NCBI RefSeq assembly: GCF_004340665.1
Contig: NZ_SLWO01000003.1
Coordinates: 372,001 to 436,000, forward strand
Reading direction: 5' to 3'
Origin: Pedobacter psychrotolerans
GTDB lineage: Bacteria; Bacteroidota; Bacteroidia; Sphingobacteriales; Sphingobacteriaceae
Length of the DNA stretch: 64,000 nucleotides
This document shows, piece by piece, positions 21,835 to 53,247 of this stretch. The notes below the pieces were generated by a model. That model was not told the DNA's origin. It did no database searches and was given only the letters and a program-made list of their open reading frames with translations. A program made the position numbers and the translations under genes. The first letter of the stretch is position 1, and the number at the start of each line of letters is the position of its first letter.

Positions 21835-22242
21835 TTAATCTGTTAAGTTGCGGTAAAAATCATTAACAAAAGTTTTTTGTCCATCATTAAAAATATTGAC
21901 ACAATTGAAATTTATGATCAGTCCCTGAGGTGCTTCTAATAACTTCATATAGGTTAATATTTGGGCTTCAAAAATAGGTTCTATTGTTTTTGATGCTTTT
22001 ATTTCAACTGCTAAGCAGCCTTCAATAAATAAATCTGATCTTAGATAAGTAGCAATTTCTATCTCTTTATAACATACTGGCATCGAAACTTCTGTCATAA
22101 AGTTTATATTTCTAAGCGTTAGTTCATGTTTCATACATTCATGATATACACTTTCTAAAAGACCTGGTCCAAGTGCTTTATGAATTTCTATTGCAGCACC
22201 AATAACGTTGTAAGTTATCTCTCGTAAGTATGTTTTAGTCAT
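21835..22242 (-). CDS. GxxExxY-family protein
   Basis: A 135-residue protein with the eponymous motif GPGLLESVY (Gly27, Glu30, Tyr33), followed by VCYKEIEIATYLRSDLFIEGCLAVEIKAS. The last part has the spacing of a PD-(D/E)xK nuclease core, Asp/Glu then VEIKA, and the closing FEAQILTYMKLL fits its last helix. The family is widespread, often in many copies per genome, and its function is unknown. A nuclease role is inference. Here it lies next to a structured tandem repeat at 22391-22544, downstream of comM on the same strand. Confidence 0.85.
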   Translation of the reverse strand: MTKTYLREITYNVIGAAIEIHKALGPGLLESVYHECMKHELTLRNINFMTEVSMPVCYKEIEIATYLRSDLFIEGCLAVEIKASKTIEPIFEAQILTYMKLLEAPQGLIINFNCVNIFNDGQKTFVNDFYRNLTD

Positions 22243-22323
22243 TGTTTTAAAGGTTTAACAGGATATGAAATTGATTTATTATTTTTTAGTAAATATTCTA
22301 ATCGTATTTATTCTTGAACTATT

Positions 22324-22544
22324 GGCATTTAGTTCATGGAGATAATTAGTTTATAGATTTTTGCTATATGTTTAATCATTTTATTGTGGACCATATAGGC
22401 ATTTAATTCATATAAATTATTTTGCTATATGTTCTATATTCCTATATGGTTTAAGCATATTCAGTTTGAATCATTTCATTTTGGGCCATATAGGCATTTA
22501 GTTCATATAGATTATCTTGCTATATGTTCTATATTCCTATATGG
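22324..22544. repeat. 95-bp tandem repeat with nested inverted arms
   Basis: Two nearly identical units begin at 22391 and 22486 (period 95 bp); a third, degenerate and shorter, begins near 22324. In the last unit CCATATAGG (22486-22494) pairs with CCTATATGG (22536-22544), and CATATAG (22504-22510) pairs with CTATATG (22520-22526). All spacers are 9 nt. The unit at 22391-22449 keeps the same geometry with one inner mismatch. The spacer between the comM and GxxExxY genes (322 bp) holds nothing else. Confidence 0.85.
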
Positions 22545-22564
22545 TTTAAGAATATTCAGATCAT

Positions 22565-24103
22565 TTATCCAGCCCATCCATCCCGATCTAAACTTCTATA
22601 ATTAATTGATTCTGCCAAATGCTCTAGTGCTACATTTTCGCTTCCATCTAAGTCTGCAATGGTTCTGGCTACTTTCAAAATTCGATCATAAGCCCTTGCG
22701 GATAAGCCCAAGCGTTCCATAGCGGATTTGAGTAATGTTGTGCCAGCTTCATTGATCTGACAGACTTTGCGCACCATTTTTGGACTCATTTGTGCGTTGT
22801 AATGTAAATCTTGCTTATCAGCAAAGCGAAGATCTTGAATTTCCCTTGCCCGAATAACGCGTTTCCGGATGTATTCACTTTTTTCCGCTTCGCGGGATGA
22901 AGCCAGTTCAGAAAAATTGACTGGTGTAACCTCAACATGTAAATCGATTCGATCTAATAATGGCCCGGATATTTTACTGAGGTATTTCTGTACTACACCA
23001 GGTGCACATACACATTCCTTTTCGGGGTGGTTGTAAAATCCGCACGGGCATGGATTCATAGAGGCCACCAGCATGAAACTTGCAGGATATTCAACGGAAA
23101 AGCGAGCTCTTGAAATAGCGACCTTGCGATCTTCCAAAGGCTGGCGCATTACTTCTAAAACCGTTCGTTTAAACTCTGGCAATTCATCCAAAAACAAAAC
23201 GCCGTTATGAGCCAGAGAAATCTCTCCCGGTTGAGGATGTATTCCACCACCAACTAATGCCACATCCGAAATCGTATGGTGAGGAGATCGATAAGGTCGA
23301 ATGGTCATCAATGCATCTGCAGCAGATAATTTCCCGGCTACAGAATGTATTTTAGTTGTTTCGAGTGCTTCATATAGATTTAATGGCGGTAAAATAGTAG
23401 GAAGACGTTTCGCCAGCATCGTTTTACCTGCCCCTGGAGGGCCAATCAAAATTACATTGTGTCCACCGGCGGCAGCAATTTCTAGTGCGCGTTTAATATT
23501 CTCCTGTCCTTTAACGTCAGAAAAATCATGTTCATAATTACCAATATTTTTAAGAAATTCCTCCTTGGTATTAATCTTTACTTGTTCAAGCTTTTCACTT
23601 TTATTGAAGAAAGCAATTACTTGTGCAAGCGTTTCCACACCATAGGCAATCAAGCCATCGACAATAGCGGCCTCACGAACATTTTGCTTTGGTAAGATAA
23701 AGCCCTTAAAGCCATCATTTTGAGCTTGAATGGCAATGGGTAATGCACCTTTAATTGGTTGGATAGCACCATCTAATGAAAGTTCACCCATGATAAAGTA
23801 GTTCTCCAACTCTTCTGATGGAATTTGCCCGGATGCGGCTAAAATGCCAATAGCAATTGGTAAATCATATGCTGAACCTTCTTTCCTGATGTCAGCAGGA
23901 GCAAGATTAACTACAATTTTTTGTCTGGGCATTCGAAAACCAGCAATGTTGATGGCGCTTTCTACCCGCTGCAGACTTTCTTTAACTGCATTATCAGGTA
24001 GGCCAACCATATAATATTTATTGCCGCCACTGATGCTGACCTCAATGGTGATTGTAAGCGCATTTACGCCAAAAACAGCACTCCCGTAAGTTTTTACAAG
24101 CAT
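22565..24103 (-). CDS. ComM/YifB-family Mg-chelatase-like AAA ATPase
   Basis: A 512-residue protein with an N-terminal LonC/ChlI-like domain (about 20-180), an AAA+ domain and a C-terminal helical domain. Walker A GPPGAGKT is at 221-228. NPCPCGFYNHPEKECVCAPG marks the Cys-rich insert of the family, and GPLLDRIDLHVEV the sensor region. ComM is a helicase that promotes branch migration of integrated DNA in natural transformation. The name YifB is used for the same group. It is complete and its stop lies 20 bp after the structured repeat. Confidence 0.93.
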   Translation of the reverse strand: MLVKTYGSAVFGVNALTITIEVSISGGNKYYMVGLPDNAVKESLQRVESAINIAGFRMPRQKIVVNLAPADIRKEGSAYDLPIAIGILAASGQIPSEELENYFIMGELSLDGAIQPIKGALPIAIQAQNDGFKGFILPKQNVREAAIVDGLIAYGVETLAQVIAFFNKSEKLEQVKINTKEEFLKNIGNYEHDFSDVKGQENIKRALEIAAAGGHNVILIGPPGAGKTMLAKRLPTILPPLNLYEALETTKIHSVAGKLSAADALMTIRPYRSPHHTISDVALVGGGIHPQPGEISLAHNGVLFLDELPEFKRTVLEVMRQPLEDRKVAISRARFSVEYPASFMLVASMNPCPCGFYNHPEKECVCAPGVVQKYLSKISGPLLDRIDLHVEVTPVNFSELASSREAEKSEYIRKRVIRAREIQDLRFADKQDLHYNAQMSPKMVRKVCQINEAGTTLLKSAMERLGLSARAYDRILKVARTIADLDGSENVALEHLAESINYRSLDRDGWAG

Positions 24104-51765: not shown

Positions 51766-53247
51766 ATGAAAAATACTAAATATATATATATCGCATTTGC
51801 ACTCTTGGTATTGGCAAGTGGATGTAAAAAAAGTTTCCTGGACGAAAGACCAAGTGAAAAAGTTTCACCAGAACAAATTAGTGAAGAAGCTTTAAGAGAT
51901 CCTACCGTATTAAATGCTTATACACGGGGACTGTATTCGAGCATGTATAATACCGGTACAGGTGGTACAACAGGTCATGATGATTTTGGCCAAAAAGGCT
52001 ATGATATTTATTCTGATATGTTAGCATCAGACATGGCGCTAGGATCACTTAATTATGGCTGGTATAGCACTGTCGTTAGATATCAGGCTACAAAAGATTT
52101 CACTCAAAATGCCGCCTACATTCCTTGGCGTTATTATTATAAAATTATTTTTGGTGCTAACTCTTTAATAGATGTTTTAGGTGGTAACAACGCTACATTT
52201 ACTAATAAAACTTTAGCATACAGTATGGGGCAGGCAAAAGCCATGAGGGCCTATGCCTATTTTTATCTTACTCAGTTTTATGCCCCCCAGGGTTATGGAA
52301 CGGGATCTGAAAGAATTCTACCCCTTTACACCGATGCTAAAACAACCAATCAACCACTGGTTACATCTGCTGTTATTTTTGATCAAATGATCAAAGATTT
52401 GACTGACGCTTCAACATTGTTAGCAGATTACAGCAGAACTGGTAAGGGAGAAATTAACGCTGATGTAGCAAAAGGTCTACTGGCTTATGTTTATGCTGCT
52501 CGCGGTACTGCTGCAGATTTAGCTCAGGTGGTTACTTTAACTGATCAGATCATTCCAAAATTTCCGGTTTTAGCTAAAGCGAATGTGACTACCGATGGAT
52601 TTAATAATCTGCCAAATAGCGCTAACTGGATGTGGGGAGCTGATCTTCAGATTTCCAGTAATTTAGATCTAATTTCTTGGTGGGGACAGATCGATATTTT
52701 TACCTATAGCTATGCATGGGCAGGAGATCCTAAATTTATAGATGATAAATTATATGCTTCTATTCCGGCTACAGATACCCGTAAAGCACAGTTTGATGAT
52801 AATGCTGATTATGGTGGTCTTCTTCCAACTGGAAAATTCTTTGATCCTGCAAGGATTGAAGGGGGGCAAAGGACGGTTATTACTGATTATGTATATATGC
52901 GTGTTGAAGAAATGATCCTCTTAAATGCAGAAGCTAAAGCGAGATTAAATCAGGATGCACCAGCAAGAACGGAGCTCAAGAAACTTTTAATTGAGCGTGT
53001 TTCTAACCCTAATTTTATAGATGCATTAAGTGGTAACGATTTAAAAGAAGAAATTTATAAACAAACCAGAATTGAGCTTTGGGGAGAGGGCAAGGTTTAT
53101 TTAGCAATGAAAAGAAATAAACACTCTATTACTAGAGGAACAAACCATTTGTTCTTTGCTGGCGACACATTTGCCTATGATGCTGATGAATTAACGTTCC
53201 CAATACCACAGGCAGAGGTTATTAATAATCCAAATCTTAACAAATAG
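51766..53247 (+). CDS. SusD/RagB-family nutrient-binding lipoprotein, pair 2
   Basis: A 493-residue lipoprotein (lipobox VLASGC, Cys20) of the classic SusD family. It starts SFLDERPSEKVSPEQ after the Cys, and GQAKAMRAYAYFYLTQFYAP and MRVEEMILLNAEAKARLNQ are typical TPR-like helices. It ends ELTFPIPQAEVINNPNLNK, the family C-terminus. It should sit on SusC2 as the surface lid. The substrate cannot be told. The gene ends at a very strong hairpin. Confidence 0.94.
   Translation: MKNTKYIYIAFALLVLASGCKKSFLDERPSEKVSPEQISEEALRDPTVLNAYTRGLYSSMYNTGTGGTTGHDDFGQKGYDIYSDMLASDMALGSLNYGWYSTVVRYQATKDFTQNAAYIPWRYYYKIIFGANSLIDVLGGNNATFTNKTLAYSMGQAKAMRAYAYFYLTQFYAPQGYGTGSERILPLYTDAKTTNQPLVTSAVIFDQMIKDLTDASTLLADYSRTGKGEINADVAKGLLAYVYAARGTAADLAQVVTLTDQIIPKFPVLAKANVTTDGFNNLPNSANWMWGADLQISSNLDLISWWGQIDIFTYSYAWAGDPKFIDDKLYASIPATDTRKAQFDDNADYGGLLPTGKFFDPARIEGGQRTVITDYVYMRVEEMILLNAEAKARLNQDAPARTELKKLLIERVSNPNFIDALSGNDLKEEIYKQTRIELWGEGKVYLAMKRNKHSITRGTNHLFFAGDTFAYDADELTFPIPQAEVINNPNLNK

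Follow-up and report, generated by a model that had tools for sequence, protein, structure and literature searches.

What is the short tandem repeat with nested inverted arms that lies between two genes of Pedobacter psychrotolerans, and is the protein encoded beside it related to it in any way? The repeat occurs in a window of 64,000 nucleotides (the whole stretch of DNA analysed here; contig NZ_SLWO01000003.1, positions 372,001 to 436,000), and an initial annotation had read it as two full units of symmetric geometry preceded by a degenerate one, under selection as a folded form and conceivably paired with the adjoining GxxExxY gene in the manner of REP/RAYT systems. We consider it probable that the units of this small tandem array are gene-less copies of a palindromic element, that the complete element encloses a GxxExxY gene, and that the encoded protein cuts the folded arms and drives their copying. 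The features of the window on which the argument draws are the following:

21835-22242, minus strand: GxxExxY protein gene (135 aa, PD-(D/E)XK; PF13366, TIGR04256), the proposed partner enzyme.
~22320-22372, no strand assigned: degenerate third unit (repeat families D2 and D3).
22391-22449, no strand assigned: hairpin unit 1, within repeat unit 22371-22464, read directly; outer arms CCATATAGG (22391-22399) and CCTATATGG (22441-22449), inner arms CATATAA (22409-22415) and CTATATG (22425-22431), three 9-nt spacers.
22486-22544, no strand assigned: hairpin unit 2, within repeat unit 22466-22559, read directly; outer arms 22486-22494 and 22536-22544, inner arms CATATAG (22504-22510) and CTATATG (22520-22526).
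22565-24103, minus strand: comM/YifB-like gene (TIGR00368), outside the element and a stable neighbour for comparing the site between species.

The array is located between the comM/YifB-like gene and the GxxExxY gene, both on the minus strand, and its two full tandem units (22371-22559, each 94-95 nt) are 91% identical. The 9-9-7-9-7-9-9 succession of arms and spacers first described for them is kept in both, but the nested symmetry is complete in unit 2 alone, where the inner arms pair at 7/7 positions; those of unit 1 pair at 6/7 (CATATAA). The degenerate unit said to precede them was also seen. Each 9-nt spacer next to an outer arm is in turn a degenerate module (CATTTAG or AATATAG), and the symmetry therefore amounts to an 8-9-nt module phase in which an arm is joined to its own reverse complement; the arm of unit 2 is a run of CATATAG, CATTTAG and CATATAG at this phase. 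Units start with ACC and end with GGT. Folded as RNA, units 1 and 2 were more stable than shuffled sequences on the plus strand (z -3.3 and -5.6) and on the minus strand (z -3.2 and -4.5), and the stretch with the degenerate unit folded no better than shuffles (z -0.8 and -1.9). The window contains no Rfam match at gathering score and no tRNA.

To our knowledge, no role has been assigned to GxxExxY genes, and in the open-access texts available to us the name serves as a gene label only. The attribution of the adjoining gene to this family, with a nuclease-like core, is borne out by matches of its product to PF13366 (E 3.5e-35; 121.3 bits against a cut-off of 22) and TIGR04256 (E 6.1e-37; 126.5 bits against a curated cut-off of 35), and by G27, E30, Y33, D70, E80 and K82, which are invariant in the alignment and place the protein within the family. 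Residues D70, E80 and K82 are invariant in two alignments, of 21 and 41 sequences, one of which omits a locus with a stop in its translation (L182). The structure model of the protein (pLDDT 88.7) lies closest to SSO0001, which we take to be a Cas4 protein (Foldseek E 1.4e-3; VIA Z 8.6 over 100 residues at 3.5 A). Since the next structural matches have Z values of 7.4 and below and many are PD-(D/E)XK enzymes, we limit the claim to the nuclease fold and regard the protein as a predicted PD-(D/E)XK nuclease. Searching the PDB by sequence with the protein gave no match. In the genomes of relatives, broken GxxExxY genes with stops were read at three loci (L054, L059 and L077), and the first two retain arms of the CGCAAAG type. 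The gene appears to decay frequently, and many of its copies look old, which is as compatible with domestication as with mobility.

If the repeat and the gene belong together, arms should recur around other GxxExxY genes. In a first look at six genomes of the same genus, we read the sequence flanking 30 GxxExxY matches, some of which were two pieces of one broken gene. An inverted arm pair surrounded the gene at many of them, its spelling varying by locus (CACAGAG, CACATAG, CATATAAG, CGCAGATT, CGCAAAG and others), and a stricter motif was found at just 4 of these first 30. The full flank sample took in 179 of 184 gene matches (5 lacked 350-nt flanks) and came to 153 loci once near-duplicates were removed, drawn from the six genus genomes, 296 genomes sampled across the phylum, plus 80 named genome contigs; Bacteroidota supply nearly all of these loci, one (L152) being labelled Cloacimonadota. 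An inverted-repeat score, obtained by local alignment of each upstream flank against the reverse-complemented downstream one, had a median of 22 at the 153 loci against 13 in 648 shifted windows from the same loci, and reached at least 22 in 81/153 loci against 10/648 shifted windows. Flanks paired across different loci scored in between (median 15, at least 22 in 81/912), as would be expected if loci share module types. Direct-repeat scores were high too at some loci; in those that were read, for example L165 and L201, they stem from gene-less tandem hairpins on both sides of the gene, an architecture that resembles that of the window.

The arms lie near the start and stop of the GxxExxY gene and consist of phased modules (ACCRCARAGnnCRCARAG...) inverted across the gene. 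Two or more modules of a single listed type occurred within 250 nt upstream of the gene in 84/153 loci, downstream (on the reverse strand) in 101/153 and on both sides in 70/153, a two-sided arrangement that the other 83/153 lack; at a control distance of 700-950 nt the counts fell to 1/152 upstream and 1/152 downstream. The pattern holds in each of the three data sets, with modules on both sides in 5/27, 25/64 and 40/62 loci; it is weakest in the six genomes of the genus, which often use unlisted spellings. In the window itself, the hairpins sit solely 5' of the GxxExxY gene.

The arms of one locus change together. The commonest module spelling was equal on both sides in 51/70 loci (shuffled mean 16.8, maximum 31 in 5000 shuffles), and outer 9-mers picked independently on the two sides, which was possible in 59/153 loci, agreed at 209/236 variable positions (shuffled mean 159, maximum 183), related loci not being independent events in either count. 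This joint change of spelling across the gene in relatives is the covariation that selection on a folded form would leave, and as far as sequences can tell it supports the earlier suggestion that such a form is under constraint. Within the subfamily of the window's protein, for which 20 of 21 loci could be used (L389 was too short), own pairs of flanks scored a median of 14 against 11 for cross pairs, and five loci (L378, L379, L380, L388 and L390) had no equal or better partner flank elsewhere. Two relatives in the subfamily, L058 and L378, carry both arms; no good downstream arm was found at the four members that occupy the comM site (the window and three orthologues) or at several other subfamily loci. 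Likeness between proteins and likeness between arms were related only weakly in a 7-mer test (0.109; permutation maximum 0.106 in 300), and we draw from it no claim that arms are specific to protein subfamilies.

Constraint on folding could also mean that the arms act as RNA, their stems ending or stabilising the GxxExxY or comM transcript or hiding a start, and the gene-less copies serving as terminators. The RNA folds of both units, which beat shuffles on both strands, the closeness of arms to gene start and stop, and the position of the array between two genes of the same strand all agree with such a role. Pairing within an own transcript would, however, allow G.T mismatches in excess of A.C mismatches, and in 68 aligned loci the two were about equal (138 vs 165, p 0.14); selection at the DNA level is weakly favoured over selection at the RNA level.

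The association extends to whole genomes. The GxxExxY gene is present in 152 of the 296 sampled genomes of the phylum, or about half, and in these same 296 genomes the commonest arm pattern (ACCRCARAGN{1,3}CRCARAG) occurred in 97/152 that bear the gene (869 matches) against 10/144 that do not (15 matches), with a Fisher p of 1.7e-26. The 15 matches in gene-less genomes are near the background set by the reversed control pattern, for which 7 of 9 matches across all 296 genomes fell in those that lack the gene. Because the draw was uneven, 59 of the 144 gene-negative genomes belonging to one family, the figure that matters is the one stratified by family, a Mantel-Haenszel odds ratio of 8.5 (p 8e-6). 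Numbers of genes and matches were correlated (Spearman 0.53), and 391 matches exceed two per gene, so that many copies are gene-less; arms beside genes are counted among the matches, and the genome association in part restates the flank result. The commonest pattern was absent from 55/152 gene-bearing genomes, and other spellings exist. Among 69 genomes of the genus, 10 had at least three matches of the CAYATAG type (CATATAG or CACATAG), and 6 of these 10 genomes hold an intact gene that shares 50% identity or more with that of the window; 15 of the other 59 hold such a gene without this number of matches, and spelling and gene subfamily are only loosely linked in the genus.

Outside Bacteroidota, a plasmid of Gemmatirosa (Gemmatimonadota) carries two full hairpins (AACCGCAGAGGACGCAGAGGGCCGCAGAGG...) that enclose a GxxExxY match consisting of two pieces, and the 1.1-Mb plasmid record has 59 matches to the arm pattern against 0 for the reversed control. 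Several hairpins on it are nested, one inside the loop of another; we did not count these as independent insertions, as they may be copies of one composite. On a 24.8-kb Bacteroides plasmid, two of 5 pattern matches flank its GxxExxY gene. The CRCARAG pattern was absent from 6 of 8 plasmid records with a GxxExxY gene, and flanks were inspected in 5 of the 8, those from Fusobacteria and Treponema showing just short or weak repeats. Two scans of viral contigs and a search of phage records yielded no relative. In a Sphingomonas plasmid record (L245 1937-2402), fabD and fabG are separated by a GxxExxY gene that is preceded by a phased arm and is possibly a recent insertion in an operon.

A second gene family offers a comparison. 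Around 30 loci of PF05635, a four-helix-bundle family of S23p type, modules of the GxxExxY type were found upstream in 0 and downstream in 2, and the inverted-repeat score reached at least 22 in 7/30 against 0/60 shifted windows, which suggests, from flanking sequence, a second, parallel class of element around some PF05635 genes. Flanks of these genes (L313-L342) contain recurrent phased words of their own, such as AGTGGCTAGTGGC, TTAGCTATTAGC and TAGTATT.

At the window's own site, the comM gene allows species to be compared directly. We examined the region downstream of comM in 30 of the 64 genus genomes that bear it (one flank, L263, starts inside comM). A GxxExxY gene and CATATAG-type arms occurred together in 4/30 (the window's own genome, G048, G389 and G009) and neither was present in 26/30, including one genome whose comM is 95% identical. 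Gene and array go together at this site, the 4/30 being uncorrected for kinship, and the four arrays differ in spelling and keep the hairpin plan. A scan for empty sites covered 165 gaps, of which 3 had modules on both strands, and the one of these three that was inspected held no clean insertion; none of the loci scanned offered a clean empty site that would reveal an insertion boundary or a target duplication.

Further copies in the window's own genome (5.19 Mb) follow the hairpin plan and not its exact letters. The exact search for CCATATAGG-N30-50-CCTATATGG, close to the one suggested at the outset, returned no second copy there. A looser pattern (ACCRYANAGN{2,3}CRYANAG) had 11 matches against 1 for its reversed control, and gene-less tandem hairpins spelled CACAGAG are among the 11. 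On contig C5 (~52090-52570; L240 1370-1850), gene-less tandem hairpins of the CACAGAG type are spaced by 130 and 156 nt and include a CGCAAAG-type stretch. Half-palindromes ACCATATAGRCATARAGAACATATAGG lie no more than 500 nt from the starts of three contigs of this genome (C5, L040 147-173; C2, L041 330-355; C7, L042 434-460), adjoining sequence that these contig starts have in common, perhaps upstream of rRNA operons.

When the whole array was searched as DNA against 99 genomes, clear matches beyond the window's own genome came from the related genome G048 alone, the remainder being weak. In G048, kindred hairpins form five tandem arrays; their units measure 83-126 nt, are alike within an array and differ outside the arms between arrays. 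One array occupies the orthologous site, again flanked by comM and GxxExxY, and the remaining four adjoin unrelated genes, far from the GxxExxY genes of G048. Also in G048, a 453-nt unit in about two copies (L036 2913-3794) mixes CTATATGCCCTCTATGCCTATATGG half-hairpins with another recurrent word, CCCTTCGACTCCGCTCAGGGTGACA. Gene-less hairpins that share a module phase are thus represented by the two full units of the window and by the kindred arrays of G048, and hairpins of a common plan that lack the gene are found scattered, in tandem and, here and there, one inside another.

This distribution bears on each competing account. Gene-less arrays beside unrelated genes, nested copies, and the way in which genomes with the commonest pattern track those with the GxxExxY gene, which ordinary terminators would not do, add to the mismatch counts in making an RNA role of the arms unlikely. 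Alternatively, the hairpins could be ordinary REPs moved by a RAYT or another HUH transposase, with GxxExxY genes as passengers or as elements of the same site preference. Dispersed tandem and nested palindromes do resemble REPs, and REP-type repeats with GTAG or CGTC tags are reported from Bacteroidetes (PMC3733652). We nevertheless judge this account quite unlikely, given that the arms bracket GxxExxY genes with a spelling specific to the locus, that the presence of the arm pattern in genomes tracks GxxExxY, and that the window arms open with ACC, not with the tags given there; neither GTAG nor CGTC stands at an end of the window's palindromes. That the arms are a mere by-product, slippage-prone phased repeats expanding passively beside a gene kept nearby by descent alone, is quite improbable, for although tandem arrays whose units are alike within and different between arrays would suit it, inverted arms of matching spelling on both sides (51/70 loci) and copies at unrelated places exceed what slippage would produce.

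The data support a real pairing of repeat and GxxExxY gene, at the scale of the phylum and at the window's site. Under the reading we favour, that of gene-less copies of a palindromic element, the full element would consist of a GxxExxY gene between two arms, each arm a run of 8-9-nt modules (ACCRYnnAG-nn-CRYnnAG...; CATATAG being the spelling of the window) with its reverse complement on the far side. The protein would recognise the arms when folded as single-stranded hairpins or cruciforms, for example during replication, and cut at or near them, upon which arm units would be copied into new sites and expand in tandem, much as is supposed for REPs with RAYTs. For recognition and cutting we take TnpA-REP as the analogue, an enzyme that acts on the single-stranded form of its cognate REP and processes it (PMC8266576), and mobilisation of the repeat by the GxxExxY protein is inferred on the same grounds. 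The window array would then be such an expansion beside its own gene, at a site that has lost the far arm or never had it.

More tentatively, and with slightly less confidence than doubt, we suggest a class of mobile palindromes in at least two phyla, in which a GxxExxY gene between phased arms would give rise to copies of itself and, much more frequently, of gene-less hairpins, these nesting and amplifying in tandem, enzyme and arm spelling co-evolving, with a parallel class of S23p type that has a spelling of its own. The pairing ties GxxExxY genes to a defined DNA partner and makes their function directly testable; it would account for a class of intergenic repeats that are anonymous at present, and would demonstrate that the strategy of combining repeat and enzyme arose with a nuclease unrelated to RAYTs. 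We found no account of a hairpin-GxxExxY pairing in the open-access literature searched, and such an account may be in print elsewhere.

Several known systems invite comparison. MITEs are gene-less copies that share the inverted ends of a parent element, and in this they are like the hairpins described here. They differ in that a copy here is a hairpin throughout, the enzyme does not belong to the DDE transposases and no target duplication was found among the loci scanned. Rpn (YhgA-like, recombination-promoting nuclease) proteins are PD-(D/E)XK proteins. They are described as DNA-mobilising, with a link to RecA-independent transfer, and belong to a different Pfam family (PF04754; PMC5350276); hairpin arms are not known to us from Rpn. 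The intervening sequences (IVS) with an S23p/PF05635 ORF are alike in placing a small ORF in an insert that has been called selfish, and in Coxiella heptamer repeats precede the ORF of the IVS (both PMC4990558); some PF05635 genes examined here likewise have phased inverted arms of their own. The protein fold is nevertheless unrelated, the modules are spelled differently, and the GxxExxY elements that were read have ordinary genes on either side and do not interrupt 23S rRNA.

The closest parallel is with REP/RAYT systems (TnpA-REP, REPIN), in which short palindromes are also dispersed, gene-less copies also outnumber genes and form tandem clusters, and a candidate cognate enzyme gene is flanked by the palindromes. 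The enzyme here is, however, a predicted PD-(D/E)XK protein and not an HUH (Y1) protein like RAYT, the arms are runs of 8-9-nt modules where REPs measure 20-40 bp and bear a GTAG or CGTC tag, and the GxxExxY gene sits between the two arms of a single palindrome. The REP/RAYT-like pairing first entertained for this locus is in this sense partly supported: the link of repeat and gene holds across the phylum and at the window's site, mobilisation by the protein is its conjectural part, and the idea appears right in kind, as a repeat with a candidate cognate enzyme.
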